Positions 132 to 44,190 of a DNA stretch of 64,000 nt are shown here, one piece after another. How positions within the stretch are numbered: position 1 is the stretch's first letter; every line of letters begins with the position of its first letter. The position numbers and the translations under genes were made by a program. The DNA lies in NCBI GenBank assembly GCA_900318175.1, contig ONJQ01000006.1, positions 36,843 through 100,842 on the forward strand. Direction: 5' to 3'. The DNA comes from an uncultured Bacteroidales bacterium (GTDB taxonomy: Bacteria; Bacteroidota; Bacteroidia; Bacteroidales; P3). Below the pieces are notes generated by a model that saw only the letters and a list, made by a program, of their open reading frames with translations, was not told the DNA's origin and did not search any database.

Positions 132-162
132 CTAATTTTCTCAATGATACAAAAAAAAATTG

Positions 163-170
163 TATTTTTG
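163..170 (+). promoter_or_regulatory. Bacteroidetes -7 box for argS
   Basis: TATTTTTG fits TAnnTTTG and lies 37 bases before the argS ATG at 208. No clear TTTG is seen at the -33 position. Confidence 0.5.
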
Positions 171-207
171 CAATTTGAATTTACATCAAGAAAACACAAA
201 AATTGTT

Positions 208-1998: not shown

Positions 1999-2066
1999 TG
2001 GTTGGAATGTGTTAATGCTTGAATGTGAAAATGTTTGAGTTGATTGTCCGTTAAATATTAAGGTTG

Positions 2067-2801
2067 ATGTATTATACAGATACTGTTACAATTCCTAATT
2101 ATCTGTGCGACTGCCATGACAGGCTGACAATGTGGGGCATGGCACGGCTTATGCAGGAGTCGGCAGGGCACCATGCCGAGACCGCAGAGTTGGGTTTCCG
2201 CCAGCTGATAGAGAGGGGGAAGGCGTGGGTGCTGTGCCGCATGTATTTTGTGGTGAACCGCATGCCGATGGAGAGCGAGACGGTGCAGGTGAAGACGTGG
2301 AGCCGTGGGACGGACGGATTGTTTGCTTTCCGCGATTTTGAGTTGATAGACTCGCAAGGGGTGGCAGTCACTTGCTCCACTTATTGGGTGATTATCGATT
2401 TCGAGAGCCGCAAGGCCATGCGTATACATGAGTTCTGGCGCAACATAGAGACGCATCCCGACTGCGCCACAGACCGCGACCATCTGGACCGGCTGCGCAT
2501 ACCGCGCGACGCGGGAGAACCCCTCACAGCAGCCCAGTTTGCCGTTAAGCCCTCCATGTTGGACCATACTTTCCATGTCAACAATGCGGAGTATATCAAA
2601 TGGGTGTTTGACAATCTGCCCGCTACGGCACCGCAGGAGGCCCCTTTCCGTTTTGCCATCGAGTTCCTCTCGGAGACCAAGCCGGACGAGACCATCGCGG
2701 TGCAGCTCTATGCCGCTAAAGACGAGCAGGGGACAAGCTACTACAAGATTACCAACCCCCGCACCACAGCCGTGGTGGCTGCATTGATGCCGCAATCATA
2801 A
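2067..2801 (+). CDS. Acyl-ACP thioesterase (FatA/FatB-like, double hotdog)
   Basis: Hydrolyses acyl-ACP to release free fatty acids in the cytoplasm. The 244-residue protein has the two-hotdog layout of bacterial Acyl-ACP_TE proteins: an N-terminal half with WGMARLMQESAGHHAE and GKAWVLCRMYFVVNRMP, and a C-terminal half with SMLDHTFHVNNAEYIKWVF, which aligns with the plant D-x-N-x-H-V-N-N catalytic block. Here the Asn position looks like Thr, a variation also expected among bacterial members. ATG at 2067 is preferred over TTG at 2064. The S41 protease starts 23 bases downstream, so the two may be co-transcribed. Confidence 0.88.
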   Translation: MYYTDTVTIPNYLCDCHDRLTMWGMARLMQESAGHHAETAELGFRQLIERGKAWVLCRMYFVVNRMPMESETVQVKTWSRGTDGLFAFRDFELIDSQGVAVTCSTYWVIIDFESRKAMRIHEFWRNIETHPDCATDRDHLDRLRIPRDAGEPLTAAQFAVKPSMLDHTFHVNNAEYIKWVFDNLPATAPQEAPFRFAIEFLSETKPDETIAVQLYAAKDEQGTSYYKITNPRTTAVVAALMPQS

Positions 2802-2824
2802 TTGATTCACACAATAACACATTC

Positions 2825-4474
2825 ATGAAACGATACATTGCATTGATACTCCTCTTCGCATTGGCTGCGCCTGTGCAGGGGCAGGGGTTGAAAGGGCTTT
2901 TCCACAAGAAAAAGGAGGTCGCCGCGGACACGGTGGCGGGCCTGAAAAGGATAGAGGAGGTGATGGGGCTGTTGAGCAAACAGTATGTCACCGACCCGAA
3001 CACCGACAAACTGAGCGAGGATGTGGTGCGACACATGCTCCGCACCCTCGACCCCCACAGCATCTATATCCCTGCCAAGGAGGTGGAGAGCACCAACGAG
3101 GCCTTGTTGGGCAGTTTTGAAGGGGTGGGAATCGCCTTTTCCATAGTGGACGACACGGCAAGGGTGCAGGAGGTTCTGCAGCAAGGGCCCTCTTATAAAG
3201 TAGGTGTGCTGCCGGGCGACAAGATTCTGCGTATTGACGGGTTGGCAGCCACGGGCGACAGCGCTAAACGCTCGTTCATCTATCGCCATCTGCGCGGCAA
3301 GAAGGGCACTGAGGTGGTGACCGATATGCTGCGTGGCAAGGATACGATCACCTTCCACATCATTCGCGACGTGGTCCCTATCAATTCCATCGAGGTCTCC
3401 TTTATGGAGAAGGACTCGATAGGCTATATCGCCTTGCTGCGCTTTGCCCGCACCTCGGTGGCGGAATTCCGCAAGGCGGTTCGCGAACTGAAAAAGCAGG
3501 GCATGAAGTCGTTGGTGCTTGATTTGCGCGGCAACTCGGGTGGCTACCTCGACATTGCCTTCGGCCTGTCCAACGAGTTTATCAAGGCCGGTAACTTGGT
3601 GGTGTACCAGCAGGGACGCGCACGGAGCCGTCAGGATTTCAAGGCCAACAGGAGCGGCTCGTTCAAGGAAGGCAATCTGGTGGTGCTGATCGACGAGGGG
3701 AGTGCCTCGGCATCGGAGATTGTGAGCGGTGCGGTACAGGACTGGGACCGCGGCCTGTTGATAGGCCGCCGGAGCTATGGCAAGGGTCTGGTGCAGACCA
3801 TGTACCGTTTGAGCGATGGCAGTCAGGTGCGCATCACCACGGCACGCTACTACACCCCTTCGGGTCGCTGCATCCAGCGCCCCTACGACAAGGGAGCGGA
3901 TGCCTATAACCGCGAAACGCAGCGGCGCTACAACCACGGGGAACTCTTCTCGGCAGACTCTATCCACCTGCCCGATTCATTGAAATATAAAACTGCCGGC
4001 GGACGCACGGTGTATGGCGGCGGCGGCATTATGCCGGATGTTTTTGTGCCGATAGACACTACTCCTGCTACGAAGTACTATACCGAATGTCGGCGCAAAG
4101 GCATCCTCAACCAGTTCCCGCAGTATTGGGCTGACATCCATCGGGAGGACTCAGCGGTCAGCACTTTCGACACCTTCTTGGCCAGCTATGAACGGCTGGG
4201 AGTGGACACCCTCTTTGTGGCTTACGCCGCCGGCAAGGGAGTGGCGCTGGACAGCCTGGTGCCACAGGCCGACACTACGTTGCCTGCCGTGCCGGACAAC
4301 CGCACGCTGGCCGAGCGCGACCCCTTCCTGCACATCCAAATCAAGGCCCTTCTGGCCGATTGCCTCTTCGGCCGCGGCCATTATTACCAAATCATGAAGG
4401 ACCGCGACCCCGTCTACCAGAAAGCTCTCTTCTACCTGAGGGAGCGCCCGGAGACCTTTGAGAAACTCCATTAA
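2825..4474 (+). CDS. S41 family C-terminal processing peptidase
   Basis: Periplasmic tail-specific serine protease of the Ctp/Prc type. A signal peptide (MKRYIALILLFALAAPVQGQ) is followed by a PDZ domain at about residues 90-170 (VGIAFSIVDDTARVQEV; GDKILRIDG) and the S41 catalytic domain. The serine is in DEGSASASEIVSGAVQ near 293 and the lysine in GRRSYGKGLVQ near 316, so the Ser/Lys dyad is intact. It has 549 residues with an extended C-terminal region, as in other Bacteroidetes members. A strong terminator follows the stop. Confidence 0.93.
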   Translation: MKRYIALILLFALAAPVQGQGLKGLFHKKKEVAADTVAGLKRIEEVMGLLSKQYVTDPNTDKLSEDVVRHMLRTLDPHSIYIPAKEVESTNEALLGSFEGVGIAFSIVDDTARVQEVLQQGPSYKVGVLPGDKILRIDGLAATGDSAKRSFIYRHLRGKKGTEVVTDMLRGKDTITFHIIRDVVPINSIEVSFMEKDSIGYIALLRFARTSVAEFRKAVRELKKQGMKSLVLDLRGNSGGYLDIAFGLSNEFIKAGNLVVYQQGRARSRQDFKANRSGSFKEGNLVVLIDEGSASASEIVSGAVQDWDRGLLIGRRSYGKGLVQTMYRLSDGSQVRITTARYYTPSGRCIQRPYDKGADAYNRETQRRYNHGELFSADSIHLPDSLKYKTAGGRTVYGGGGIMPDVFVPIDTTPATKYYTECRRKGILNQFPQYWADIHREDSAVSTFDTFLASYERLGVDTLFVAYAAGKGVALDSLVPQADTTLPAVPDNRTLAERDPFLHIQIKALLADCLFGRGHYYQIMKDRDPVYQKALFYLRERPETFEKLH

Positions 4475-4506
4475 CCCTTATTCCGTAGCGGTGGACTGAC
4501 CGACTC

Positions 4507-4560
4507 AAATCAAATCCGCAAACAAAGATTCAGAATAATTTGTTGCGGATTTGATTTTTT
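4507..4560 (+). terminator. Rho-independent terminator after the S41 protease
   Basis: A perfect 15-base-pair stem (AAATCAAATCCGCAA at 4507-4521 with its complement at 4543-4557) is followed by a run of T. It sits just before the leuS promoter and isolates leuS from the upstream genes. Confidence 0.88.
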
Positions 4561-4564
4561 TTCG

Positions 4565-4572
4565 TATATTTG
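4565..4572 (+). promoter_or_regulatory. Bacteroidetes -7 box for leuS
   Basis: TATATTTG is an exact TAnnTTTG match. A TTTG at 4539-4542 lies 22 bases upstream, overlapping the terminator stem. It gives leuS a leader of about 125 bases. Confidence 0.6.
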
Positions 4573-4629
4573 CACAATGTCATATTTTACGGATAGTATT
4601 GTAAAATATTTTGGCACAACAAGTAATTG

Positions 4630-4644
4630 ACGGAGAGGCTCCGT
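4630..4644 (+). repeat. CGGAG-nnn-CTCCG hairpin in the leuS leader
   Basis: ACGGAG-AGG-CTCCGT, a 6-bp perfect stem with a 3-base loop, 61 bases before the leuS start. The same hairpin type occurs in the yajC (9045-9059) and corA (63641-63657) leaders. Confidence 0.6.
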
Positions 4645-4705
4645 TGTTATTTATGAAAAAGAGTATTAGAGAGCGCGGCCAAGCACCGCAGGTATTATAA
4701 AAACT

Positions 4706-7552
4706 ATGGATTATAACTTCAACGAAATCGAGCCGAAGTGGCAGAATTATTGGCGAGAGCACCACACCTACCGGTGCCTCAACGAGTCCAGCAAACCCCA
4801 TTATTATGTTCTTGACATGTTCCCTTACCCCTCGGGTGCTGGACTGCATGTGGGCCATCCGCTGGGCTACATTGCCAGTGACATCTTTGCCCGCTACAAA
4901 CGTCTGCGGGGCTTCAACGTACTGCATCCGATGGGCTATGATGCTTACGGTCTCCCTGCCGAGCAGTACGCCATCCAGACCGGCCAGCATCCCGCCATCA
5001 CCACGGAGCGCAACATTGCGCGCTACCGTGAGCAGCTGGACAAACTGGGCTTCTGCTTTGATTGGGAGCGTGAAGTGCGCACCTGCGACCCGCAGTATTA
5101 CAAATGGACACAGTGGACGTTTGTCCAGCTGTTCAACCATTACTACGACCAGAAACTGGACAAGGCACGCCCCATCAGCGAGCTTGTCAAGCAACTGGAG
5201 GACGGCACAATGCCCACCACCGTCGACAAGCCCTGGGCCGAGATGAACGACGACGAGCGTCAGGACTACCTGATGAACTTCCGCCTGGCCTACCTTGCCG
5301 ACATCCCCGTCAACTGGTGTCCCGAGTTGGGAACGGTGCTGGCTAACGACGAGGTGGTGAACGGCCTCAGTGTGCGTGGCGGCTATCCCGTCGAGCGCAA
5401 GCTCATGCGCCAATGGAGCCTCCGCATCTCTGCCTACGCCCAACGCCTTGTCGACGGGCTGGAGGAGGTGGACTGGTCCGACTCTCTCAAAGAGATACAA
5501 CGCAACTGGATTGGCCGCAGCGAGGGCGCCGCAGTGTGGTTCCCCCTCGACGTGAAGCCCAACGCCAACGTCCTGCCCGGTGCACAGGCCTACATCAGCC
5601 AGTGCGACCCGCAGCCTGTGCCCAGTTTCGAAATCTTCACCACCCGTCCCGACACCATCTACGGCGTCACCTTCATGGTTCTCTGCCCGGAGCATGAGTT
5701 GATAGACCTCATCACCGCCCCCGAGCAAAAGGCCGAAGTCGAAGCCTACGTCACCTGGGCCAAGAACCGCTCCGAGCGTGAGCGTCAGGCAGAGGTGAAG
5801 AAGGTGAGCGGTGTCTTCACCGGGGCTTACGCCATCAACCCCCTCACCGAGGAGCGCATCCCCATCTGGGTGTCCGACTACGTGCTGGCCGGTTACGGCA
5901 CGGGTGCCATCATGGCCGTCCCCGCACACGACAGCCGCGACTTTGCCTTCGCACGCCATTTCAACCTCCCCATCCGGCAGGTTGTCGCCACCGACCCGCA
6001 CAACCTCACCGACCCCGCCTCCTGGACCGAGAGCCTCGACAGCAAGACGGGTTTCAGCGTCAACAGCGGTTTCGTCACCGGCATGAAAGTGAAGGATGCC
6101 ATGGCCGCCGTGATTGACAAGATTGAAGAGATGGGCATTGGCCACCGCACCGTGAACTACCGCCTCCGCGACGCTATCTTCAGCCGTCAGCGCTATTGGG
6201 GAGAACCCTTCCCCGTCTATTACAAGAATGGCCGACCCTGCACCCTCCCCGAGGAGTGCCTGCCCCTCTGTCTGCCCGAGGTGAGCGAGTTCAAGCCCAC
6301 CGCCACAGGCGAGCCCCCGCTGGGCCACGCCACCCGCTGGGCTTGGGATGAGAAGAACCGCTGCGTGGTGGAGAACAGCAAGATTGACAACATCACCGTC
6401 TTCCCGCTCGAACTGAGCACTATGCCCGGCTTTGCCGGCTCCAGCGGATACTACCTCCGCTATATGGACCCCCACAACGACAATGCCTACTTCAGCCCCC
6501 AGGCCGTCAACTATTGGCAGAACGTAGACCTCTACGTCGGCGGTGCCGAACACGGCACGGGACACCTCATCTACGCCCGTTTTTGGAACAAGTTCCTCTT
6601 CGACATCGGACTCAGCATCAAGCAGGAGCCCTTCCGCAAGCTTGTCAACCAAGGCATGATCCAGGGCCGCTCCAACTTCGTTTATCGCAGCAAGGAGGAC
6701 AACAACCTCTTCCTCTCCAAAAATATCCCAGGACGCGAAGAAAAGACCGTCCCCATCCATGTCGACATTAATATCGTCAACAACGACATTCTTGACATAG
6801 AAAAGTTCAAGGCCTGGCGCCCAGAGTTTGCCGATGCCCGCTTCGAACTGGAGGATGGCAAATACGTCTGCGGCTGGGAGATTGAGAAGATGTCCAAGTC
6901 CATGTTCAACGTCCAGAACCCCGACGACCTTGTGGCCCGTTACGGTGCCGACACCCTCCGCCTTTACGAGATGTTCCTCGGCCCCGTCGAGCAAGCCAAG
7001 CCCTGGGACACCAACGGCATCGAAGGTGTATTCCGTTTCCTCAAAAAATTCTGGAAACTCTCCGAGACTTGCACCGACACCCCTGCCGACAAGGAGCAAC
7101 TCAAGCTCATCCACCAGACCGTCAAGAAAATCACCGACGACATTGAACGCTTCTCCTTCAACACCTCCGTCAGCACCTTTATGATCACCGTCAACGACCT
7201 GTTGGCCAAAGGTTCTGTCTCCAAGGAAGTGATGGAAACCCTCGCCGTGCTCATGGCCCCCTTTGCTCCGCACATTGCCGAGGAGGTCTACCATCAGCTT
7301 GGCCACGACACCACCGTCTGCGATGCCGTTTGGCCATCCTACGACGAGAAGATGCTTGTCGAGGATTCCTTCACCTATCCCGTCTCCTTCAACGGCAAGA
7401 TGCGTTTCACCCTCCAGCTCCCTAATGGCATTAGCCAGCAGGATGCTGTAGCCGCTGTCAAGGCCGATGGCCGAAGCCAGAAATGGATCGACGGCAAGGA
7501 ACCCAAACGCATCGTCTTCGTCCCCAACAAGATTATCAACATAGTTGTCTAA
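4706..7552 (+). CDS. leuS: Leucyl-tRNA synthetase
   Basis: Class I synthetase for tRNA-Leu; 948 residues, typical of Bacteroidetes. HIGH motif HVGHPLGY near residue 48. CP1 editing domain with [12 protein letters not shown] near 311 and [16 protein letters not shown] near 398, so post-transfer editing should be intact. KMSKSMFN near 728, then the anticodon-binding domain. It has its own promoter and a structured leader. nusB begins 18 bases after the stop, so leuS probably heads a transcript that includes the nusB-coaE run. Confidence 0.98.
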
Positions 7553-33245: not shown

Positions 33246-34718
33246 ATGGCAAAAGATTTTGTAAAACGCTCAGAAAACTACTCCGAATGGTACAACGAAC
33301 TGGTTGTACGGGCCGACTTGGCCGAGAATTCAGCCGTGCGCGGATGCATGGTCATCAAACCCTATGGCTACGCCATCTGGGAGAAGATGCAGCGCGCCCT
33401 CGACGATATGTTCAAGGCCACAGGCCACCAAAACGCCTATTTTCCCCTCTTTATCCCCAAGTCCTTCCTCAGCCGTGAGGCCGAGCACGTTGAAGGCTTC
33501 GCCAAAGAGTGTGCCGTGGTGACCCACCACCGCCTCATGAACAACCCCGACGGTAGCGGTGTTGTTGTCGACCCCGCAGCTCGCCTTGAAGAAGAGCTTA
33601 TTGTCCGCCCCACCTCCGAGACCATCATCTGGAGCACCTATAAGAACTGGATCAAGTCCTATCGCGACTTGCCCATCCTCTGCAACCAGTGGGCCAATGT
33701 CGTCCGTTGGGAGATGCGTACCCGCATGTTCCTCCGCACAGCCGAGTTCCTGTGGCAGGAAGGCCACACCGCCCACGCCACCCGCGAGGAGGCCGAAGAG
33801 GAGGCCCGCCGCATGCTCGACGTCTACGCCGACTTTGCCGAGAACTGGATGGCTGTCCCGGTGGTCCGTGGTGTCAAATCGCCCAACGAACGTTTCGCCG
33901 GTGCTCTCGACACCTACTGCATCGAAGCCATGATGCAGGACGGCAAAGCCCTTCAGGCCGGTACTTCTCACTTCCTTGGCCAGAACTTTGCCAAAGCCTT
34001 CGAGGTACAATTCCTCAACAAGCAGAACCAGCTGGAATATGTCTGGGCCACCTCGTGGGGCGTTTCCACCCGTTTGATGGGAGCCCTCATCATGACCCAC
34101 AGCGATGACAACGGCCTTGTCCTGCCTCCCAAGCTGGCCCCCATACAGGTGGCCATCGTCCCCATCTGCAAGAACGACGAGCAGATGGCCGAGCTCGACG
34201 CCCACATCGCCCCCATTATCGACGCTCTCCGCGCCAAGGGCCTTACCGTCAAGTACGACAATCGCACCGAATATAAACCCGGTTGGAAGTTCAACGAGTA
34301 TGAGTTCAAGGGTGTGCCCGTGCGTCTTGCCATCGGTCCCCGCGACCTGCAGAATGGCACCTGCGAAGTGTGCCGCCGCGACACATTGGAGAAGATCACC
34401 ATGCCCATCGAAGGCATTGCCGACCACGTGCTGAGCCTGATGGACGAGATACAGAAGAGCCTCTTCCAGCGTGCTGCCGACTTCCGCGCAGCCAACACCC
34501 GCAAGGTGGACACCTGGGAGGATTTCCAAGTCGAGATTGAAAAGGGTGGATTCCTCCTCTGCCACTGGGACGGTACCACCGAGACCGAAGAGCGCATCAA
34601 GGAACTCACCAAAGCCACCATCCGTTGCATCCCCTACGATGCACCCCAAGAGGAAGGCCACTGCATCCTCACAGGCAAGCCCTCCCACCGCCGCGTAATC
34701 TTCGCCCGCGCCTACTAA
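33246..34718 (+). CDS. proS: Prolyl-tRNA synthetase, short archaeal/eukaryote-like type
   Basis: Class II synthetase for tRNA-Pro, 490 residues. It begins [20 protein letters not shown] and lacks the bacterial INS editing insertion between motifs 2 and 3. Motif 2 region is [20 protein letters not shown] near 158, with RPTSETIIW before it. The anticodon-binding domain and a C-terminal domain ending in Tyr (VIFARAY) follow, as in ProRS type 3. A terminator follows. Confidence 0.96.
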
Positions 34719-34742
34719 CCCCGGTGAGACACCGGAAAAAGT

Positions 34743-34785
34743 AAACAGCGACGCTCACACGTATTCGTGCGGGCGTCGCTGTTTT
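34743..34785 (+). terminator. Terminator after proS
   Basis: AAACAGCGACGC (34743-34754) pairs with GCGTCGCTGTTT (34773-34784); an inner CACACG/CGTGCG stem extends it, and TTTT follows. A smaller hairpin CCGGTG-AGA-CACCGG (34722-34736) lies directly after the proS stop. Confidence 0.82.
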
Positions 34786-35697
34786 ACCCGGATCGGTCGT
34801 TAGGGTTTTTGGCACGATGTGTGCGACACCGCACACCTTAGGGCTGGCAGACAATAGGCAGAGATTGAAAACCAAAGGGGTGCGCTGACAACCACTCAGG
34901 GGTTGCAGGATGCTATAACGCTGCAACCCTGCAGGGTTGTGGATTTCTGATGTGGCTTTACAGAGGCGATGCTCCGCTTGTCATGCCTATGGTCATACTT
35001 TTTTCTCCATGTTAGAGGGTCGCAGAGTACCAAAGTCACAACATGTCAAAGAACGCTCTGAAACAGAGCTCTACGACTTATAGCCCCTCTGCTCCGTTCC
35101 GGCTGCATAGAAACAAAGATTTGCTCTTAATAAAACATCTAACTACCCGTACTACGCAAAACCGTCCTCAACTATCCCATTCCTCACCATCCTTCTCGTT
35201 CCGAAATGACAGTTGATGGTAATTCGTGTTTGAGATTGTTTAGTGTCCGATAAACGTGCTGAAAGCACCTAATCTTATTAACCCCACACGAAGCGAAGTG
35301 CCGTATGGGGTGGGGACAGAGATACTTATTCTGCGTGCAGTAAGCACGCTACTTTGATGATTTTCATGTTGTAGCGTTTCTTAGAAACGCATAGGATGGG
35401 CATTATTCCCCACACTGCACACCTACGGTGTTTAGTGTGGGGTTAATAGGATTGTATGCCTTCGGCACACTCAAACCTTCGTAAATCAATATATGACATA
35501 TAATATTGATATTGCATAATTTACTAATGATTTGGTCCTTTCTGTCGGACACCAATGTTTAAGAATAATCGTAAGTCGACACCGAGCGTTACACCGTTAC
35601 AGGGTTGCAGTTGAAAAACACCATCAACCACAACAACGGCAAACAGGCTGTCAATCGCAACATCCTGCCAATTCACTTATTCCATGGGTGTTATAAT
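34786..35697. repeat. Chain of short perfect palindromes in a non-coding spacer
   Basis: No gene in about 900 bases. Perfect short hairpins follow one another: GGTTGCAG/CTGCAACC (34901-34928), CAACCCTGCAGGGTTG (34924-34939), GCTCTG-AAA-CAGAGC (35055-35069), GTGCT-GAA-AGCAC (35256-35268), GCGTGC-AGTAA-GCACGC (35333-35349), GCGTTTCT/AGAAACGC (35374-35390), ACACC-TAC-GGTGT (35419-35431) and TGCC-TTC-GGCA (35457-35467). From 35470 to 35697 the sequence is AT-rich with nothing recognisable. The pattern suggests REP-like repeats. Confidence 0.7.
35277..35447. repeat. 13-base perfect inverted repeat enclosing the hairpins
   Basis: ATTAACCCCACAC at 35277-35289 and its exact complement GTGTGGGGTTAAT at 35435-35447 flank 145 bases that hold three of the small hairpins. 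A similar TAACCCCAT/ATGGGGTTA pair occurs at 63804-63846. No transposase lies inside. Confidence 0.75.
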
Positions 35698-35727
35698 ATT
35701 GTTCCTACTTTATAGAACAGGAACAAT
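35698..35727 (-). terminator. Hairpin at the end of the DUF1848 operon
   Basis: ATTGTTCCT (35698-35706) pairs with AGGAACAAT (35719-35727). The DUF1848 stop codon falls in the loop. There is no long T-run, so it may be a weak terminator. Confidence 0.45.
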
Positions 35728-36858
35728 TAGTTCAGAATGAGGGTCAAGTCGATGACGGTGCCAGTTCTCTGTGGCCAGTTCCTTCGAGGCGTTGGCGTAG
35801 CAGTATTCGCACTGGTGCGGACAGGTGTTATACTGCCCGATGTCCTTGCTCACCATGCATCCACAGGCCGCCCGCTGCCCCTTGTCGGGCATCTTCTTCT
35901 TTTGTATGGCCACTGTTCCGTCGTCCAGCAGGATGACTCCCTCTTGTCCCCTCTTCAGAGGGGTGGCCGTCAGGCCGGGGTATGCCACCTCCTCATTGCC
36001 AAACATGTCTCTTTGAACAGGAACTATCGTCACACCAAGATAATCCATCAGCGCCTTGTCCCTATGGGCAAGACGGATAATCAAATCATGGTCTATGCAG
36101 CTGTTGTGTACCACGCCAGGCAGGTCAATCTTCTCTCCGCAAGTGGCAAGGGTGAAGCCCCATTTCTTGTTCAATTCCACAAGCCGTTTGGCGAAATCGA
36201 CCATGTTCGGCTCATTCCATTCAATATAGTTGATGTTCGACTCCTTCAGGTTGTGTTTCACCTTGCGATAAGAGGCGATGTCGGCAAAGCTGAACACCAG
36301 TTTCTCGGTATATCCCTTCAGTTGGTCGCCGATACGCTCAATCTTGTCAAGCAGCACATCGGTGTTAATGGCAGCCCGGCCACCGGGTTCTGTCAGCACC
36401 AGCGGATCAAACCGCCAGATTACACTCTCCTTTCCTAACCTGTCTACAAGTCTTTTGAATGTGTCGATTCGCTCTTGTATTGGTGGCACCTTCTTTTCAA
36501 GCCCATCAGCCTCATAGTCATTTAGGGTATATTGGATATAGCACCCGATACTCCCGTCCCCTCTTGAGAGGGGTGCCACGTTAGTGGCGGGGTATGTCAA
36601 CTCATCCAGATGCTCCAGCAGGGGCTTAGGATTCTTCGACCAGAAGACGATAAACCGTGTATCCTGATACGACACATATCCCTTCTTGTTATTGAAAGGA
36701 TTAATCCAAGCCGAATACCCTTTCTGCAGCCGATAGAAGAACCAGTCAGCATAAAACGCGGGAATATCCGTCGCCCGACTCGCCGACACAATCACCGGGT
36801 GCATAGCAGTCTCCACCACGCTCCCGTCATCAAGGGTGATATGTATCTTTTCAGTCAT
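35710..36858 (-). CDS. DUF1848 family Fe-S protein carrying two in-frame palindromic repeats
   Basis: 382 residues. The family body is clear: VIVSASRATDIPAFYADWFF, FIVFWSKNPKPLLEHLDEL, WRFDPLVLTE, TLATCGEKIDL, and the C-terminal cysteine cluster AACGCMVSKDIGQYNTCPHQ followed by CEYCYANA. This CxxxCxxC cluster resembles a radical-SAM Fe-S site placed at the C-terminus, as described for the family; the reaction is unknown. Two repeat copies add YPATNVAPLSRG (after LDELT) and YPGLTATPLKRG (before the Cys cluster). The start overlaps the stop of the 677-residue gene by 8 bases, so it is the last gene of that operon. Confidence 0.85.
   Translation of the reverse strand: MTEKIHITLDDGSVVETAMHPVIVSASRATDIPAFYADWFFYRLQKGYSAWINPFNNKKGYVSYQDTRFIVFWSKNPKPLLEHLDELTYPATNVAPLSRGDGSIGCYIQYTLNDYEADGLEKKVPPIQERIDTFKRLVDRLGKESVIWRFDPLVLTEPGGRAAINTDVLLDKIERIGDQLKGYTEKLVFSFADIASYRKVKHNLKESNINYIEWNEPNMVDFAKRLVELNKKWGFTLATCGEKIDLPGVVHNSCIDHDLIIRLAHRDKALMDYLGVTIVPVQRDMFGNEEVAYPGLTATPLKRGQEGVILLDDGTVAIQKKKMPDKGQRAACGCMVSKDIGQYNTCPHQCEYCYANASKELATENWHRHRLDPHSELIVPVL
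35946..35984 (-). repeat. Palindromic repeat copy B inside DUF1848
   Basis: Two hairpins in a row: CCCCTC-TTCA-GAGGGG (35948-35963) and GGCC-GTCA-GGCC (35965-35976), ending GGGGTATG. Read in frame as YPGLTATPLKRG. Same layout as copy A, with different but complementary second-stem bases. Confidence 0.8.
36556..36596 (-). repeat. Palindromic repeat copy A inside DUF1848
   Basis: Perfect CCCCTCTTGAGAGGGG (36558-36573) followed by GCCAC-GTTA-GTGGC (36575-36588) and GGGGTATG. Read in frame as YPATNVAPLSRG. It interrupts the family sequence between LDELT and IQYTLNDYE. Confidence 0.82.
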
Positions 36859-38884
36859 TACTGCAATATAACGATAAAAGCCGTTGTTTTATTTTGTCTC
36901 TAAGGTCTTGAGGAAAGTATTTTGCATCCTCTTTTCCGAAGCTACCATCTTTAAGTTTACAAAAGATGGTTATTGCATCTCTGTTTGATTCTCGTTTCAC
37001 TCTAGAATAATACTTACTATTGCCTTTCTGTAGTTGTTGTTGAAACCATTCCAAGTCTTTTCTTAATTTGTTGGCATCGGACGGCGGCACAAGGTCTTTT
37101 ATCTTATCCCAACATCCATTATCATTGTAAAAATATAGTTTATCGGCAAATAATGATGGTTGTACAATCTTATTACTATTTTCTTTCTTGCCTTTCTTGC
37201 ACATGTCAATAAGACCTTTCCATCCATCGTTTTTCTTCTTTGTCAATGCCTTAATGACATTCCAATCAGTTAATCCGCTACTTATTATTTCACAGTAATA
37301 TGCCTCATACCTGTTACTCTTTTCACCTGCAACTAGTTTGATTTCATCTACAATTTTTTCTGATGGGCTTTTCTCTTTAATACTTGAAATAATTAGTATG
37401 TTTTCTTCTACAGGCTGTTTTATGATAGGTTTTTGCCTTAGTGGAATCATATCTTCTCCATGAAGTTGTCCATAGAGTTCTTTATATAGCAGGGAAAAGT
37501 ATTCTTTTGAAATATTATCACAAAAGGTATCAACAAGGTCTCTGGTCATACTGGCATAGCCTGTCAGTGCACCATACATGGCAAATGCCAATCGGTAGTC
37601 GTACATTCCTTTGTTTTGCATAAACCGTAGCATTTTGTCCCATTCTTCACCATGAAGTATCACCGCTGCAATGGAACAAAGTGCTTTATTATTCCACTCC
37701 ACATCCAATGCATCTCCATTGCCTATATGGTGGCGCAACTTATTGAGAAACGCTCTTTGTTGGCTTTTTCCCCAATCATTGCCTAAAAATGATATAGTTG
37801 CATCGGTTATTTTTTCTGCCAATTCCATTCTGTTCCAACTGGCAATCACTGGTGTGGATTCTTGTAATAATACTTCGTTAAACCAATGTTTCACTATGTC
37901 TTGCTCATCTGAACATGTAATGGTCATTAGGGTGTCTCCATTAGTAAGTATTCCTTCAGAATCAAGGCTTTCAGCTTTCCTTGTTTGCTCCATATTTTTA
38001 ATATGGTCGTTAATGCGTTCCTCTATCCATTTCATTGCTGGGTTTGTTTCACCCTCTTTGGTTGGTTCAGTAAGGAATCCAATATAATTATACAACCCTA
38101 AATTCTCTATGGGTAGTTTGACCCTATAATTCTTCAGTAAAGCAAGCACCTCATCCACATTCGGAGTAATACTTTTTAGCTCAACATACAAAGGAAATAA
38201 CTGTTCCCATCTTTTTGATAGTTCTCTTAATTCACTCTCCTTGTTTTTCCCACTTGAAATAGCGGTTGAAAACACGTTTTGCACATCAAGCAAAATTCCT
38301 AACCTCTTTACCTCAGTAATGTTGGTCGACAACCAGGCTCCCAAATAGTAGCCGTACAGCATTCCTTTCAGCCGATTTCTTTTGTCGTCATTTGTAAGTT
38401 CATTTGCATAAGTGTTAGTTGGTGGAATTACTACTTGTGTAAAGTCATATTCACTTCTATAATTTTCAATGTACATTCGGGGAATGTATAGATGTGATAG
38501 TTTCACCTCTAAACTATGGTCAGAAAGGGACTCAGTTGTGAGCCTGTCTTGTTTGTTGAAAAAAATGAAACGTGTATTGTATGGGGTAATATAAATAGTC
38601 CTGTTAATGGAGTAGAAACCATTGCCTAATGTAGTGACATCTTCCTCATCCAAATATACTTCTATAAGCATGGGGTGGTCCTCTAAGTCAGAAAGCGGTC
38701 GGCTGAAAAGAGCTGGTTGATCTGCTAATAGCGTCACATCTGCCCATTTCCCCTCAAAGATATCAGTAAATCGTTTCATTCCAAATGTTCTTTTGTAATA
38801 GAAACTAGCTGGTGATATACTTTCGCTTGCAACAATGCTATTAAAGTTGAGCGAAGATGTTGGTATGTAATAAAGTTTCCTCAT
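36851..38884 (-). CDS. Unrecognised 677-residue protein of the methyltransferase-helicase operon
   Basis: I do not recognise the family. No signal peptide, membrane helix or known catalytic motif is seen. The N-terminal third is beta-rich and starts MRKLYYIPTSSLNFNSIVAS; the middle and C-terminal parts are mainly helical (EDMIPLRQKPIIKQ linker, then KKKNDGWKGLIDMCKKGKKE). The conserved-looking start (LNFNSIVASESISPASFY) suggests a real protein family. AT-rich codons contrast with the housekeeping genes around the island. It starts 11 bases after the helicase stop and overlaps DUF1848. Could be a sensor, nuclease-like or scaffold component; nothing proves which. Confidence 0.8.
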   Translation of the reverse strand: MRKLYYIPTSSLNFNSIVASESISPASFYYKRTFGMKRFTDIFEGKWADVTLLADQPALFSRPLSDLEDHPMLIEVYLDEEDVTTLGNGFYSINRTIYITPYNTRFIFFNKQDRLTTESLSDHSLEVKLSHLYIPRMYIENYRSEYDFTQVVIPPTNTYANELTNDDKRNRLKGMLYGYYLGAWLSTNITEVKRLGILLDVQNVFSTAISSGKNKESELRELSKRWEQLFPLYVELKSITPNVDEVLALLKNYRVKLPIENLGLYNYIGFLTEPTKEGETNPAMKWIEERINDHIKNMEQTRKAESLDSEGILTNGDTLMTITCSDEQDIVKHWFNEVLLQESTPVIASWNRMELAEKITDATISFLGNDWGKSQQRAFLNKLRHHIGNGDALDVEWNNKALCSIAAVILHGEEWDKMLRFMQNKGMYDYRLAFAMYGALTGYASMTRDLVDTFCDNISKEYFSLLYKELYGQLHGEDMIPLRQKPIIKQPVEENILIISSIKEKSPSEKIVDEIKLVAGEKSNRYEAYYCEIISSGLTDWNVIKALTKKKNDGWKGLIDMCKKGKKENSNKIVQPSLFADKLYFYNDNGCWDKIKDLVPPSDANKLRKDLEWFQQQLQKGNSKYYSRVKRESNRDAITIFCKLKDGSFGKEDAKYFPQDLRDKIKQRLLSLYCSND

Positions 38885-38895
38885 ATTTATTATAA

Positions 38896-39948
38896 TTATC
38901 TGTCCCGAACGATTGTTTCAGTTGAAGTTTCATAGCAGTCCTGTGGGGCATCCTCAAGAAGATTGGGTTTACTGCCACTATACATCATGTAAAGATAGTG
39001 ATATGTACGAGTCATGGCAACATACAATGCAGAGCGTTTGTCATCATCAATAATGGAGGGAAGCAGTGGTAGGAAAACAGTTTCAAATTGTAGCCCTTTA
39101 GCACTATGATAAGTCATCACTTTTGGATGTGGTGTGTTAAAGTTAAGGGTGTCATATGTTTGCTCGTCTTTTCTATATCTGTATTGTACATTATCTATTC
39201 CTAGTTGATTGAACAATTCTACTATGTGTTCTACGCTGGAATTGTCGGACATAAAAATCCCAACATCGTTGAATTCCCTTTTTTTGATGATTTCTGCAAT
39301 GCTTATAATCTGTTCGTTAATTCCGTTATATTTTAATAAAAAAGGTTTTTGTTTTTCTTTGCTCTGATAAATGGATTCAACAAAAGGCGGCAAATCTTCA
39401 CCGACATATTGTGCGAGCCTTGCTACCTGTAAGGGTAGACGGTAATTACGATATAAGGGAAATTCCTTTGTTGTGGGTTTTATTTCTGGGAATGAAAGTC
39501 TGATATCCTCAACAGGCAATGTGTCCCTAAATGGTTTATAAACAGATTGGGCAGTATCTCCGAAAAAGAAGAATTGTTTTCTTGTTGCAGCGATAAATTC
39601 CTCAATCTCTTCTTGGGTGAAATCTTGTATCTCATCCACAATTGTATAATCTGCTCTTGGCATACCGAGTCGGTTTTTCCACCACCAATGGTAGACAAAG
39701 TTGTTAACCAGTCCCAGTTCTTCCCGTCCAGAATTCATATAGCCGCATAGGGCTTTTGTGTAGACTATTATTTGATAGTCGTTCCCCCTTTCTTTCTGAA
39801 TGCGTTGGGCTTTTATTAGTGCAAGTACTGATTTTCCACTGTCTGCGCAACCAGAAACGATACAGGACTTGTCCAATGTTGCATTAAATACGTTTAACTG
39901 GTCATCATCCAGGTCATTTTGTTTTACCATCCAATCTTTTTTGGGCAT
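38896..39948 (-). CDS. Small superfamily-1 (UvrD/PcrA-like) helicase or ATPase
   Basis: 350 residues holding all core SF1 motifs but little else: motif I GCADSGKSVLAL near 33, motif II TIVDEIQDF near 103, motif III FFGDTAQSVYKPFRD near 128, motif IV-like NYRLPLQVARLAQ near 170, motif V VMTYHSAKGLQFETVFLP near 280, and motif VI ALYVAMTRTYHYLYMM near 305. At about half the size of UvrD it lacks large 1B/2B insertions, so it may act as a switch or translocase. Four bases separate it from the methyltransferase stop. AT-rich codon use. Confidence 0.88.
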   Translation of the reverse strand: MPKKDWMVKQNDLDDDQLNVFNATLDKSCIVSGCADSGKSVLALIKAQRIQKERGNDYQIIVYTKALCGYMNSGREELGLVNNFVYHWWWKNRLGMPRADYTIVDEIQDFTQEEIEEFIAATRKQFFFFGDTAQSVYKPFRDTLPVEDIRLSFPEIKPTTKEFPLYRNYRLPLQVARLAQYVGEDLPPFVESIYQSKEKQKPFLLKYNGINEQIISIAEIIKKREFNDVGIFMSDNSSVEHIVELFNQLGIDNVQYRYRKDEQTYDTLNFNTPHPKVMTYHSAKGLQFETVFLPLLPSIIDDDKRSALYVAMTRTYHYLYMMYSGSKPNLLEDAPQDCYETSTETIVRDR

Positions 39949-39952
39949 ATTA

Positions 39953-40759
39953 TTAGTTTTTATGTATTATCATCCTCCAAGCCACTTTGCTTACATCATT
40001 GTTCTGGTGACTATGGGTTACAAATATCGGTTTATTATATCCTTCGTTCAAGTGGACTATCATACATGGTTGAGACATTATCCCTGCATCCAACATTTTA
40101 GGAAGCCATTCGTTTGTAACGTCGTTGTAACTGGTAATATCAACTATTAGCATTAGTCCATCTTGTTTCAGTTTTGGTAACAAGGTTTTTACAATTTGAT
40201 AATATGCATTATCCTTTTCAAACCTCTCTTTTGAAACAAACTCGCAGATGGCTTTGAATGTGATAATGATGTCGTATTTGTCATTAAGTACGCTGTCTAA
40301 TATTGATAAATCATAGAAATCATCAATGGTGACAGGTATTGGCTTGAAGAGAATGTTTATTCCGATATGTGTGGCAATGTTTTGTAACACCGGCTCACAT
40401 AACCTCAAAGCATGATGGTTGCCATCCATACCATACACTTTTACTTCTTTTAATCTCAAATTATATTGTTTGAGTTGAGTGATAAGCCCGCCAATCTCTC
40501 CCCCTGTACCACAACCAAAGTCAAATATGGAAATAGTGTCTTTCTCTAACAATTGAGGTCTGTTTTTGATGAAATAATCTCCAAATATGCAATAAGATTC
40601 TGCGTAACTCCTTGGAAAGTATGTGCCGAGATAATTGAGCATATCGCTCTTGTCCCAGTCGATGACTGTCATGTCTGCATTTGACCGGCAGTATTTTGCT
40701 CCCAGTTCATTAAAGATATAGTCGTCAAGCCACTTGGGCAATGTTACGTGGGTTTCCAC
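39953..40759 (-). CDS. Class I SAM-dependent methyltransferase
   Basis: 268 residues with the Rossmann methyltransferase motif I SIFDFGCGTGGEIGG near 80, an acidic motif II loop (VYGMDGNHHALRLC) and motif IV-like KYDIIITFKAICEFVSKERF. No DNA-methylase DPPY/NPPY motif is seen, so the substrate could be a small molecule, protein or RNA. GTG at 40759 is chosen because an in-frame stop lies 33 bases upstream and no ATG lies between; AAAAGGAAG precedes it. First gene of a four-gene operon, with a leader of about 300 bases. Confidence 0.83.
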   Translation of the reverse strand: METHVTLPKWLDDYIFNELGAKYCRSNADMTVIDWDKSDMLNYLGTYFPRSYAESYCIFGDYFIKNRPQLLEKDTISIFDFGCGTGGEIGGLITQLKQYNLRLKEVKVYGMDGNHHALRLCEPVLQNIATHIGINILFKPIPVTIDDFYDLSILDSVLNDKYDIIITFKAICEFVSKERFEKDNAYYQIVKTLLPKLKQDGLMLIVDITSYNDVTNEWLPKMLDAGIMSQPCMIVHLNEGYNKPIFVTHSHQNNDVSKVAWRMIIHKN

Positions 40760-41058
40760 TTCCTTTTTCAGCCCGACCCTCCAACGGAACGTTTACTATT
40801 AACAATAAGAAAAGGCATGAGGTTATGTACTCATGTCCGTCTTCTTATCAGGTATCGCCAAACACCTTTGTGGGTACGGGGTCTATGGAACATATCTCAC
40901 GCCTGAGGATATGCACGAGGCGTGAGCCTATAGCATACACATCAAGCGAAAGCATAATTGCTCCGTCCACCCACTTGAATCTTGGCGAAATTCGATAAGA
41001 AGGGACAGTATCGTAATGCTTTTCTTGCTTACCGCTTTCTATCTTTTGAAAACAGGTG
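40760..41058 (-). promoter_or_regulatory. Structured leader of the accessory operon
   Basis: About 300 bases between the -7 box and the methyltransferase start, without a credible gene. It holds a 9-bp perfect stem CTCACGCCT/AGGCGTGAG (40896-40904 with 40918-40926) and a CATGAG/CTCATG stem near 40816-40835. This could be a regulatory leader or a small RNA. The following 41067-41248 is AT-rich with nothing recognisable. Confidence 0.4.
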
Positions 41059-41066
41059 CAAATTTA
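41059..41066 (-). promoter_or_regulatory. -7 box of the accessory operon
   Basis: The reverse strand reads TAAATTTG, an exact TAnnTTTG match. A TTTG at 41093-41096 is 26 bases upstream, slightly far for a -33 box. Confidence 0.45.
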
Positions 41067-41248
41067 CACATTTTTTTTGTATTGTACACAGACAAATTTC
41101 AATTAAAGGTGTAAAAGACAAATTATCATTAATATAGCAATGATAAATTAATGACTAATATATGCCAATTCATGTTTCTTTCAGAGGGAAGAAAGGGAAA
41201 ATGGGGATGATCAAATTGTCTACTTTACCGTAAATGGCGGGATGTTGA

Positions 41249-41566
41249 TCATCTGTTGCTGTTCTCTTTGTGTTCCTTGGCAATCAGTATTGAACGATTC
41301 AACTTGTCTATGAACCATTGTTTTTCGGGCAGGCAGGTTAGGTATTGTGCTACTCTGATACGATCTTCGTCAAGCATCATCAGTTCGATGTGCTCCGTAT
41401 TTCCCTCGCTACAGAGTAACAAACCAATGGGAGGATTATCATCGGGTTGCATGTCGTCCTCCTGCATGTAATTCAATATGAAATGTCTTAACCTTCTTCT
41501 ATTTCTTGTCTCTCCAAAAGAAATGCTGAATACTTTCCATTTTTTTTGAATTAAAAACTCTTCCAC
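41249..41566 (-). pseudogene. C-terminal remnant of a YhcG/DUF1016 PD-(D/E)XK nuclease
   Basis: 105 codons, opening with GTG directly after a stop. ILNYMQEDDMQPDDNPPIGL, then LLCSEGNTEHIELMML, VAQYLTCLPEKQWF and NRSILIAKEH match the end of DUF1016 proteins, which are often linked to restriction or mobile islands. The first 24 residues do not fit, and the N-terminal domain and nuclease core are absent. A broken gene beside the accessory operon. Confidence 0.72.
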
Positions 41567-41616
41567 TTAATAATTAAGCGGAAAAGGGGAGAAACTCACG
41601 GAAAACAACAAAGGTG

Positions 41617-44190
41617 TCATCTCAGTAGCGTCACTGTGCCGGTGAGGGTTTTCCAGGATGCGTCGTGGGTGTCCATGTAGCGGATGTAGTAGACGTAAGT
41701 GCCTTGCGGGGCGGGTGTGCCGCCTGACGAGGAATTGTTTGGGGCATTAACAGTGCCGTCCCAGCTGCCGGTCATCCCGTCGAACTGTGCCACCCGTATG
41801 CCGCGTCGGTCAAACACCGTCACATCGGCTTTCAGGATATGGAGGCTGCACGTCAGGGCAAAGCGGTTGTTGGTCTCCGCGCCGGGAGCGAATACATTAG
41901 GCGCAAGCACCCATGTGCTGTCAATTGGCGGCTCGCCCCAGTTAGGGATGGCAATCAGTGTGTAGTAGATAATACTGTCGCATGTGTCGCCGATGTTCAG
42001 ATGGATGGGAGTGTCATATTGTTCGGCGCCAAAGACCCTGCCGTTGAAAGTAACAGGCATGTCGTCCGTGGACACCGTGTCGCGAACCCAGCGGCAGTGC
42101 GGGCAGGTGGTGAAGTCTATCCGCCACAAGGTGTCGCAGCTGCCCGATGGCCAAGAGGTGGTGATCTCATACATCCCTGAGGTGTCCAGTTCATGTCCAC
42201 GGAACAAATAGTTCCCTTCGCACACAAGGATGGGAAGCAGTGTGTCCACATCGCCCCGAATGTCCATTGTGACAGACACCGTATCCTGTTTCAGGGTGAA
42301 ACAGCCCTCGTCGGCATACTTGAATATGGCGCGAACGGTAATGCGTCCTGTCCGTTGGAACAGGTGTGATAGTGGTTGGTTGAAACCCTCGTCGTCACAA
42401 CTGAATGCGGCGTTGGTTCCGTCGCCAAAGTCCCACAGCAGACTGTCGCAAGGGCGGCGGTTAGAGGCTTGGAACAGCATGGGGTCATTCACACACCATA
42501 GTGAGTCCGCCGTCAGCGAGTCCGCCAACTGCCCATTCACCGTCAGCATCGTTCCTCCAGGCTGCACATGAGGCAGCGGGATGTAGTAGATGGAGAAAAG
42601 GCTTGCCGCAAAAGGTCCTCCGTTCCGGTTCACAATGTGGTGCGTTCCTTCGGTAGTAAACTGGCTCCAGCGACCAAATGAGGCATGGCTGTAGGGTGTT
42701 CCCTCAATGGGCTGGAAATAGGACTCCAGACGATAGTAGTCCATATACATGGCGTTCACATCCTCCGTGCGCACGTACAAGTGCAAATTCGGAATGACGG
42801 CATTCCTGTTGTGGTCTTCGGATACATAGGTGGGGATGTTGAAATTAATCTGCCCCCAGTGCCACCAGCGGGTAGGGGTGAGGGTCATAAGGCCGGTGCC
42901 GAACCATTTTGCCAGCACAGGGCGGTCTGAGGTGATGTAGAGGGGACCCTCTTCATCGTTTGAGTCATAGTAGGGTGGGGCAATCACAGCTGTGTTCCAC
43001 CAGTCTGTCTTGCCCGGAGCTATGGTCAATTGCCGGCTTCCAAAGCCTGGGTGTGCCATGTCCTGTATGGTGACATGTGTCTCCTCGTCCAAGGCTGTGA
43101 ATCGGATAAAATTGTCAGAGCCATCAGTTTGGAGATCAACAAAAAACTCTTGTCCGGCAAAAAAGATAGGCACCGACTGCTCAATCTTCACATTGTAGCT
43201 TGCCACCCCACGGCTGCCGCTTCCGCCCGATCCGCTGCTCTCGAACACTGCAATCCGTTTGCAGTCGCGAGCCTTGATGTGCGTTCCAGCCATGTCTACT
43301 GCAAATGTGTCCAGCATGTCCGTATGGCTGAAGAAAGTGTGCCTTTCGACAGGTACAGGGACAACTTCAGGCGAGTTCCATGTTGCGTGGTTCGGGTCGT
43401 AATAAGGTGCCAGCATGGGGTAGTACTTCTCCGGCGGCTCGCCGGCGCTGAGGTGGAACAGCTCGCCACGCTGCAACGTCACCGTCACCGTGGAGCCCGG
43501 CGGACGGTTCAACCAGTCCCAATCCGTCGTCACAATGTCCACCACCGTGCTGTCTTCCGCAGCGACAATATCAATGGACGACATTCCTGGCATATAATAC
43601 GGATAGCGAGGGAGGCCACCCAACTGAGGGTGATGGTACACAATGGGAGGCAGGGCAACATATTCATCGCGCAACAGCTCGGTGGGCAGTACGGTGCATG
43701 CCGTCTGGTGGTTCGAGGCCACAACAAGGAAGAGCGAGATGGTATCCGTACTCGTCACGTGGAACCCCCGAGGCTGCGGAAGGTCGCCAGGCACACCTCT
43801 GTAGTCCTGTCGAGGGTTGCGCGGAAACGTGTCTATAATGCTACTTGGTGTGGCCAAGTAGACGTATGGCACAGTGTCGATAATCCTTGTATAGGTAAAA
43901 GGTATCTCTATGAAATTGGTGTCGGCCCCGCACATCCGACGCCCCATTACGTGGTACGTCTGCCGGTAGTCCAACCGCTCGTTTGTCACCGTCACATCGC
44001 AGTCATGCTCACAAACCACCTGCAACTGTGAGTGGTTGGGCGACATGCCCCTCATCGCTCTGGGGAAACAGACCCAGAAATCCGTCCCTTGGGCTGCAAA
44101 CTGCACCCCACGATGACTCATCGGGTCCTCGTCCTGCCCCAACAGCGCGAAGGGCATCAGCAGGGTAATTATCAGCAGCCAGCGGTTCAT
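41617..44190 (-). CDS. Surface protein with PKD-like region and T9SS type B sorting domain
   Basis: 857 residues. Signal peptide MNRWLLIITLLMPFALLGQ (ATG at 44190; an earlier in-frame ATG at 44313 would lie over the promoter). The N-terminal region (GVQFAAQGTDFWVCFPRAM; VVASNHQTACTVLP) resembles IgGFc-binding N-terminal domains. A PKD-like segment follows (LWDFGDGTNAAF; LSHLFQRTGRITVRAIF). The last 95 residues are a gliding-motility-type C-terminal domain (NVFAPGAETNNRFAL; VTVFDRRGIRVAQF; GTYVYYIRYMD; TGTVTLL), marking export by T9SS. Probably an adhesin-like surface protein; ligand unknown. Confidence 0.87.
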   Translation of the reverse strand: MNRWLLIITLLMPFALLGQDEDPMSHRGVQFAAQGTDFWVCFPRAMRGMSPNHSQLQVVCEHDCDVTVTNERLDYRQTYHVMGRRMCGADTNFIEIPFTYTRIIDTVPYVYLATPSSIIDTFPRNPRQDYRGVPGDLPQPRGFHVTSTDTISLFLVVASNHQTACTVLPTELLRDEYVALPPIVYHHPQLGGLPRYPYYMPGMSSIDIVAAEDSTVVDIVTTDWDWLNRPPGSTVTVTLQRGELFHLSAGEPPEKYYPMLAPYYDPNHATWNSPEVVPVPVERHTFFSHTDMLDTFAVDMAGTHIKARDCKRIAVFESSGSGGSGSRGVASYNVKIEQSVPIFFAGQEFFVDLQTDGSDNFIRFTALDEETHVTIQDMAHPGFGSRQLTIAPGKTDWWNTAVIAPPYYDSNDEEGPLYITSDRPVLAKWFGTGLMTLTPTRWWHWGQINFNIPTYVSEDHNRNAVIPNLHLYVRTEDVNAMYMDYYRLESYFQPIEGTPYSHASFGRWSQFTTEGTHHIVNRNGGPFAASLFSIYYIPLPHVQPGGTMLTVNGQLADSLTADSLWCVNDPMLFQASNRRPCDSLLWDFGDGTNAAFSCDDEGFNQPLSHLFQRTGRITVRAIFKYADEGCFTLKQDTVSVTMDIRGDVDTLLPILVCEGNYLFRGHELDTSGMYEITTSWPSGSCDTLWRIDFTTCPHCRWVRDTVSTDDMPVTFNGRVFGAEQYDTPIHLNIGDTCDSIIYYTLIAIPNWGEPPIDSTWVLAPNVFAPGAETNNRFALTCSLHILKADVTVFDRRGIRVAQFDGMTGSWDGTVNAPNNSSSGGTPAPQGTYVYYIRYMDTHDASWKTLTGTVTLLR

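Follow-up and report, generated by a model that had tools for sequence, protein, structure and literature searches.

We found that four adjacent genes of an uncultured Bacteroidales bacterium form a recurrent set, in which a putative helicase (HEL) and a large protein without a named family (ORF3) constitute the core, a methyltransferase (MT) often joins them as a third component, and a DUF1848 protein is an exchangeable add-on. HEL and ORF3 are linked and have diverged together, the pair occurs inside BREX operons, and MT is fused to nuclease domains in some lineages. We interpret the set as an undescribed, horizontally moved anti-invader cassette, with HEL and ORF3 as its core, and put the probability of this interpretation at about one half; sporadic spread and low GC content were counted in favor of the anti-invader role.

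The set lies in a stretch of 64,000 nucleotides (hereafter, the window), and its features are collected in Table 1. The genes are arranged in the order MT, HEL, ORF3, and DUF1848 along the leftward operon, and the ORF coordinates give gaps of 4 and 11 bases and an overlap of 8 bases, in agreement with the initial annotation of the window. That annotation had also described the first three genes as AT-rich. Their GC contents (MT 37.2%, HEL 38.4%, and ORF3 36.7%) confirm this when compared with those of the two flanking genes checked (55.8% and 58.6%); the DUF1848 gene has 51.1%, and the window as a whole 53.3%. The GTG start of MT is consistent with the aligned homologues. The neighboring reading frame upstream, formerly taken as a broken YhcG/DUF1016 gene, could be aligned with ORFs of 344-399 residues in two other loci (L029 and L036), close to their C-terminal ends, and is therefore a C-terminal piece. 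The name YhcG is that of the annotation itself; it is compatible with YhcG matches among the neighbors of other loci, which are not mapped to L029 or L036. Inverted repeats are present downstream of the operon, and a flanking gene of 898 residues is multicopy in the genus.

Table 1. Features of the operon and its surroundings in the window
Feature	Position	Strand	Description
MT	39953-40759	-	class-I SAM methyltransferase, 268 residues, GTG start; motif G-C-G-T-G-G; signature YLGTYFPRSY
HEL	38896-39948	-	predicted minimal SF1 helicase/ATPase, 350 residues; Walker A, Walker B, and motif VI arginine present
ORF3	36851-38884	-	677 residues, without a named family
ORF3 domains (approximate)			putative ART-like domain, residues 1-150; putative ARH-like helical domain, residues 151-482; then variable C-terminus
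DUF1848 protein	35710-36858	-	382 residues; C-terminal cysteine cluster CxC...CxxxCxxC
YhcG/DUF1016-like C-terminal fragment	41249-41566	-	105 residues; neighbor, outside the cassette
Presumed Bacteroidota -7 promoter box TAnnTTTG, TAAATTTG	41059-41066	-	just 5' of the leader RNA
Structured leader RNA	40800-41051	-	copy of a dispersed family; terminal hairpin, then T-rich stretch

Linkage, spread, and genomic setting

ORF3 was found in 10 of the 190 genomes of the window's family and in 4 of the 395 sampled genomes of the phylum, with the window's own genome counted in each case. This patchy spread bears out the accessory character that had been proposed for the set. In the nine other genomes of the family, HEL and MT adjoin ORF3 in all nine and DUF1848 does so in seven, and HEL adjoins ORF3 in all three further genomes of the phylum sample. 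In the genome G012, HEL is broken into two ORFs. All four genes are contained in a phage record (MT835661.1; from faeces, unverified). A search of viral contigs with the window's ORF3 as the sole query gave no relative, and ORF3, MT, and HEL gave no match among 72,556 plasmid records.

A scan of genome contigs with a 10-row ORF3 alignment yielded 51 named loci, eight of which were already in the family search. Because the scan was keyed on two N-terminal peptides, it misses distant forms of ORF3. Most of the loci are from Bacteroidales; three carry the name of a Flavobacteriia genus or family, and Desulfovibrio, Geobacter, and Chloroherpeton label one locus each. The co-occurrence of ORF3 with the helicase or the methyltransferase was checked in these loci: HEL is directly beside ORF3 in 51/51, and MT is present in 45/51 (two of the six misses are at a contig edge). 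DUF1848 is present in 40/51 (three of the 11 misses are at a contig edge), and the complete four-gene set in 37/51. Three loci (L064, L070, and L072) have the alternative order MT-DUF1848-HEL-ORF3. The juxtaposition of the four genes is not due to chance.

Between HEL and ORF3, pairwise distances are correlated with a rho of 0.79 (54 loci; none of 500 permutations as high). The distances of MT correlate with those of HEL (0.48) and ORF3 (0.50; 48 loci, 0/500 permutations as high in each case). For DUF1848, the values were 0.21 with MT, 0.30 with HEL, and 0.24 with ORF3, and 25, 4, and 12 of 500 permutations, respectively, were as high. Since the correlation is highest between HEL and ORF3, about 0.5 for MT, and 0.2-0.3 for DUF1848, we regard HEL and ORF3 as the core; the weak co-divergence of DUF1848, together with its different GC content, indicates a loosely attached and exchangeable gene. 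Of the four-gene system originally proposed, the linkage of HEL, ORF3, and MT thus holds, but DUF1848 is only loosely associated and does not belong to the core.

BREX or BREX-like operons host four of the 51 loci (L064, L065, L071, and L072), with HEL-ORF3 inside or beside the operon. In L065 and L071, the HEL-ORF3 pair is located between PglX and PglZ-BrxL, without MT and DUF1848; in L065, the pair shares this place with genes for a PLD nuclease and a small Zn-ribbon protein. In L064, MT-DUF1848-HEL-ORF3 follows PglX-PglZ-BrxL, and in L072, the set follows a gene with a PglZ domain (1e-6) and another with 31% identity to BrxL. The BrxC, PglX, PglZ, and BrxL of L065 had no match in the available flanking DNA of 46 of the 51 loci, and L073 has a weak partial PglX-like match only, about 8 kb away. 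PADLOC identified no BREX gene among the window's four. HNH, HKD, PD-(D/E)XK, TOPRIM/OLD, HEPN, PIN, and Schlafen are named as BREX accessory effectors in PMC12839542, the main text of which does not contain the terms ADP-ribosyl, ART, or DUF1848.

Outside BREX, the neighbors are mixed. Of 169 neighboring proteins listed, 137 were scanned, as 18 from L024-L027 and 14 that were very long or from BREX loci were dropped. Descriptively, and among the best 25 of 183 families, Schlafen AlbA_2 and AAA_14 were the Pfam families found most often (four each), followed by YhcG, DUF1016_N, BspA-type LRR_5, and recG-type HATPase (three each); among the best 25 of 87 PADLOC models, the most frequent were PDC-S01 (four), and PDC-S02 and PD_DExK (three each). 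The relation to defence suspected in the initial annotation is suggested indirectly by context, namely the BREX loci and the swapped nuclease domains of MT, but none of the models in PADLOC, Pfam, and NCBIfam assigns ORF3 to defence. The cassette was not recognised in the literature searched, which included the available parts of PMC12839542 and PMC12458937, and the term DUF1848 is absent from that literature; most subscription papers lie outside it.

Families and predicted folds of the four proteins

HEL matched Viral_helicase1 best in Pfam (1.5e-12), and UvrD_C at 1e-9. Walker A, Walker B (DExQD), GDxxQ, and the arginine motif of SF1 are kept in 57-65 of 65 rows, and the window's HEL has GCADSGKS, DEIQD, GDTAQ, and R314. 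By these motifs, HEL is predicted to be a minimal SF1 helicase. In the case of the DUF1848 protein, the match to DUF1848 was strong (5e-82) and Radical_SAM reached only E 0.04; five C-terminal cysteines are each kept in 47 or 48 of 50 rows, and the last three (CxxxCxxC) have a spacing resembling that of radical-SAM proteins.

MT matched Methyltransf_31 at 3e-5, below the family cut-off. Eight of the ten positions of its signature are kept in 56/56 rows, and the other two in 54 and 49. The motif [DNS]PP[YFW] was found between residues 100 and 330 in none of the 56 rows (48 distinct loci); thus, MT is not an ordinary N6-adenine or N4-cytosine DNA methyltransferase, and this assignment was rejected. 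Six long variants of MT (519-639 residues) were scanned, and each contains a match to a nuclease domain: PIN_4 in L019 (identical with locus L057), L059, and L067 (7e-18 to 9e-21), NERD in L053 and L069 (5e-8 and 1e-6), and HEPN_Swt1 in L041, the last being under the Pfam cut-off but with RNKYFH present. Besides these six, the MT of L066 has 604 residues. By eye, and against known nuclease active-site motifs, active-site-like residues are seen in all three types (acidic residues in PIN, ExK in NERD, and RNKYFH in HEPN). The two mid-length variants scanned (L020 and L022) gave no nuclease match, nor did the window's MT in Pfam. In L032 and L073, a DUF6035/CoiA-nuclease gene is directly upstream of MT.

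ORF3 gave nothing over the cut-off in Pfam or NCBIfam (in Pfam, only NdhS at E 0.09, under the cut-off), no PADLOC match at E<=1, and no PHROGs match at E<=0.01. No profile library among these four names the protein, in keeping with the earlier claim of an undescribed system. The ORF3 of L065 matched phrog_36607 at 7e-4 over 31 residues, which we took as chance. Comparison with PDB sequence profiles gave chance-level matches for the whole protein (E 1.7), and only chance-level coiled-coil matches for the N-terminal and middle domains.

A predicted structure of the whole ORF3 was confident, with a pLDDT of 87.4 and a pTM of 0.71 (47-row alignment), and that of the middle domain alone 91.5 and 0.88. 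In Foldseek searches with the whole model, the best PDB matches were ADP-ribosylhydrolases (ARHs); matches with an ART fold (TreTu and DarT) ranked lower, among unrelated chains, and no match of either kind was below E 0.001. TreTu, an ART toxin, matched the N-terminus of ORF3 at 3.1 A over 102 columns (TMt 0.47, E about 1.5), and DarT had a TMt of 0.41 (E about 1.5). With the middle domain alone, the top 13 PDB matches were all ARHs (probability up to 0.98, best E 0.024, TM 0.29-0.35, rmsd about 19-20 A); these are not independent because 12 are ARH3 chains from three species and one is DRAG. Among viral protein folds, nothing was found below E 0.2.

Profile comparisons of ORF3 by hhalign were not significant, either with an ARH alignment (P 0.037, probability 1.4%, reversed control P 0.18) or with a DarT alignment (P 0.17, probability 0.4%, reversed control P 0.57). 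In the non-significant ARH alignment, the ORF3 sequence from about residue 376 onward falls on the C-terminal part of ARH, as had been expected from a register set by eye. PF03747 had no match in ORF3 at E<=1, nor in four diverse relatives at E<=0.5. Membership of ORF3 in PF03747 or PF14487 is thus not supported by sequence, as there was no Pfam match and the profile comparison was not significant.

ARHs bind metal through the motifs GDALG at the N-terminus and GDxDT near the C-terminus. In the by-eye register, position 183, the counterpart of the GDALG aspartate, is alanine in 31/54 loci, and aspartate is outside its six commonest residues; at the counterpart of DxD, D429 is kept in 38/54 and R431 is found in 35/54. 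In that register, the ARH metal ligands have apparently been mostly lost in ORF3. The N-terminal domain is the most conserved part (49% mean column identity, versus 31%), and N13, Y29, R32, G35, and K128 are invariant in 54/54 distinct loci. No canonical ART catalytic glutamate was recognised in ORF3; a candidate, E126, is glutamate in 42/54 loci and aspartate in 4/54. The weak fold matches suggest that ORF3 joins an ART-like N-terminus to a decayed ARH-like domain, a resemblance at the level of fold and not of family membership.

Several known systems share features with the set. Gabija (GajAB) and Hachiman (HamAB) are likewise short mobile operons in which a helicase is paired with a large partner. 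However, HEL has only about 350 residues and low-score matches to many SF1 models (in PADLOC, best to a NERD+UvrD model at 2e-14, and to GajB models at 3e-13 at best), and ORF3 lacks any PADLOC match at the threshold given above. No model of GajA (OLD ATPase + TOPRIM) is among the PADLOC matches listed for the four genes (for HEL, the best 25 of 31), and to our knowledge MT and DUF1848 are not components of Gabija or Hachiman. DarT (PF14487) and the ADP-ribosylglycohydrolases (PF03747) weakly resemble the N-terminal and middle domains of ORF3 in fold, but ORF3 matches neither Pfam model and its ARH metal motif is apparently broken. Three of the proteins resemble PADLOC models from DRT loci: DUF1848 matches RTasDUF1848 (3.7e-37), HEL matches RTasHel (9e-10) and RTasNERD-Hel (1e-8), and MT has a weak match to the N-terminus of RT_UG35 (1e-7). 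No reverse transcriptase was found among the best 25 of 183 families in the 137 neighbors, and in a search of the phylum with RT_UG35, the matches listed cover only the RT region, with no full UG35 protein. In the case of MADS, which comprises mad1-8, MT has a partial match to mad2 (2e-4), and no other mad model is among the matches listed (for HEL, the best 25 of 31).

Possible mode of action and competing explanations

As an anti-invader cassette, the set might work as follows. HEL would spend ATP in moving on or remodelling foreign or aberrant nucleic acid, and would thereby act as the sensor that licenses ORF3. The ART-like N-terminus is the most likely active site of ORF3 and may catalyze NAD+-dependent transfer onto nucleic acid or protein, and the ARH-like domain, with its metal-binding residues lost, could serve as a scaffold or a ligand-binding regulator. 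MT would mark self or tune the target, and its fusions with PIN, NERD, or HEPN would also deliver a cut; DUF1848 may provide an optional redox or SAM-radical step. A more specific proposal is that ORF3 founds a new family, an ART-fold nucleotide-transferase joined to a dead ADP-ribosylhydrolase, in a motor-gated NAD+-dependent defence that differs from all named systems, is portable into BREX, and recruits various nucleases via MT. We regard this proposal as possible, although doubtful.

ORF3 might instead be the sensor rather than an enzyme, its ART-like and ARH-like domains both being degenerate binders of NAD+ or of ADP-ribosylated molecules, and the effector a nuclease fused to or recruited by MT. 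The apparent loss of the ARH metal motifs and the exchange of PIN, NERD, and HEPN on MT point in this direction. However, neither the window's MT nor the two mid-length variants scanned have a nuclease, two BREX loci have HEL-ORF3 without MT, and the N-terminal domain of ORF3 is conserved like an active site; we consider such a division of labor unlikely. The set could also be an operon for RNA repair or processing instead of defence, made up of an SF1 RNA helicase, a Tpt1-like ART-fold enzyme acting on RNA ends, an RNA methyltransferase, and RNases. It is consistent with Viral_helicase1 as the best Pfam match of HEL, with the lack of [DNS]PP[YFW] in all MT rows, and with PIN and HEPN, which are RNase families. 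The set is, however, rare and patchy (10/190 and 4/395 genomes) and associated with BREX, and scans of the four genes gave no match to an RNA repair family, so that this explanation appears improbable.

We judged it quite improbable that the set is a toxin-antitoxin or addiction module, in which ORF3 would be an ART-type toxin kept in check by a partner gene or, from within, by the ARH-like domain. The ART-fold PDB matches of ORF3, TreTu and DarT, are indeed toxins, and the operon is compact, patchy, and AT-rich, but addiction needs no four genes with a helicase, ORF3, MT, and HEL are absent from the 72,556 plasmid records, and the HEL-ORF3 pair sits in BREX operons. If the set is an anti-invader cassette, it would be a new module of gut Bacteroidota with a core protein that has no family name, and would bring together in a single operon SF1 motors, ADP-ribose folds, methyltransferases, and nucleases that can replace one another. 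The HEL-ORF3 pair inside BREX would then be a testable accessory arm of BREX.

Promoter box and leader RNA

The initial annotation had placed the operon behind one -7 box and a long leader. Both are present, but the leader RNA is not specific to the operon. The box fits TAnnTTTG, which we take to be the Bacteroidota -7 consensus, and its TA and TTTG are kept at this position in six aligned leaders. The leader is about 290 nt long, of which the structured RNA makes up about 245 nt, and has a minimum free energy of -88.1 kcal/mol with a z of -5.4 (computed on 40790-41055). A consensus of 29 copies contains 55 pairs, 11 of them with kept double changes. The window's leader scores 267 bits against the model (R1), of which it is one of the building rows. 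No Rfam match at E<=1 was found in 34700-41700.

The leader RNA occurs in 93 of the 190 genomes of the window's family. In the window's own genome, with one duplicate row from the opposite strand left out, there are nine full-length matches, three of which score no more than 45-57 bits, and a single partial one. Immediately downstream of 20 copies, the longest ORF is on the same strand in 16 cases and on the opposite strand in three, and is absent in one. Five of the 20 downstream proteins have no Pfam match; the others include BspA/DUF285 repeats, a MotA-like (under the cut-off) and OmpA pair, an Mrr nuclease, radical-SAM, and ATP-grasp. As the leader RNA is in 93/190 genomes, against 10/190 for ORF3, and precedes unrelated genes, we rejected it as a cassette-specific fifth part; it is most readily viewed as a regulatory leader shared by accessory genes across the lineage. 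One structured RNA family before many unrelated accessory genes raises the question of what common signal or protein reads the leader.

An exact 19-base stretch of the leader had no match in viral contigs. The leader of G012 is 98% identical to that of the window, whereas HEL and ORF3 there are 22-38% identical (aligned pieces), and four other cassette loci have leaders 81-89% identical. Among 57 cassette sources, a clear match beyond the rows of the model was obtained only in L052 (32 bits, E 3.8e-6), where it lies 34 nt upstream of the MT ORF.

Apparent exchange of the core genes, and the leader RNA family

At L021 (positions 1-6249), a relative of the cassette in another genome, the helicase and the 677-residue protein (ORF3) are only 22-38% identical to those of the window, the helicase being split into two ORFs, whereas the leader RNA (98%), the YhcG-like fragment (88%) and DUF1848 (83%) are conserved. 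On these sequence identities, the core genes appear to have been exchanged between conserved flanks.

The leader RNA belongs to a covarying, structured family of about 245 nt. A search of 190 related genomes located it in 93, and Rfam gave no match at E<=1. Genes downstream of its copies encode surface proteins, nucleases, RiPP-like products and other accessory functions. By eye, a different structured leader was read just upstream of the methyltransferase gene in one Prevotella and one Bacteroides locus (L028 and L034), with a common architecture and swapped stem sequences; it is possibly a second leader RNA family.

Neighbours and variants of the cassette

The hairpin array described beside the operon in the initial annotation was recovered as an inverted-repeat cluster (Table). 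In two loci a CoiA-nuclease/WG-repeat gene ends <50 nt from the methyltransferase gene; the two copies share 44% identity. All four cassette genes, followed by a Schlafen AlbA_2/HATPase gene, are present in MT835661.1 (labelled as a phage from human faeces; label unverified). At the BREX-like locus L072, the 914-aa gene gave a PADLOC SspC match (3e-12) and no match in a Pfam scan. Separately, a DarT-family gene directly adjoins an ADP-ribosylglycohydrolase gene in another genome (G284:C1:1272139-1273799), a possible writer/eraser pair.

Table. Coordinates of features at the cassette and its relatives
Feature	Location	Strand	Remarks
Leader RNA, structured	window 40800-41051	-	also L177-L196
Inverted-repeat cluster	window 35187-35468		downstream of DUF1848; arms of at most 37 nt with 81% complementarity
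DUF7830/DUF6035 CoiA-nuclease + WG-repeat gene	L032:5046-8024; L073:4982-7969		~995 aa
Second helicase-family gene	L030:12471-13505		between ORF3 and DUF1848
914-aa gene	L072:1-2745		upstream of PglZ-domain and BrxL-like genes
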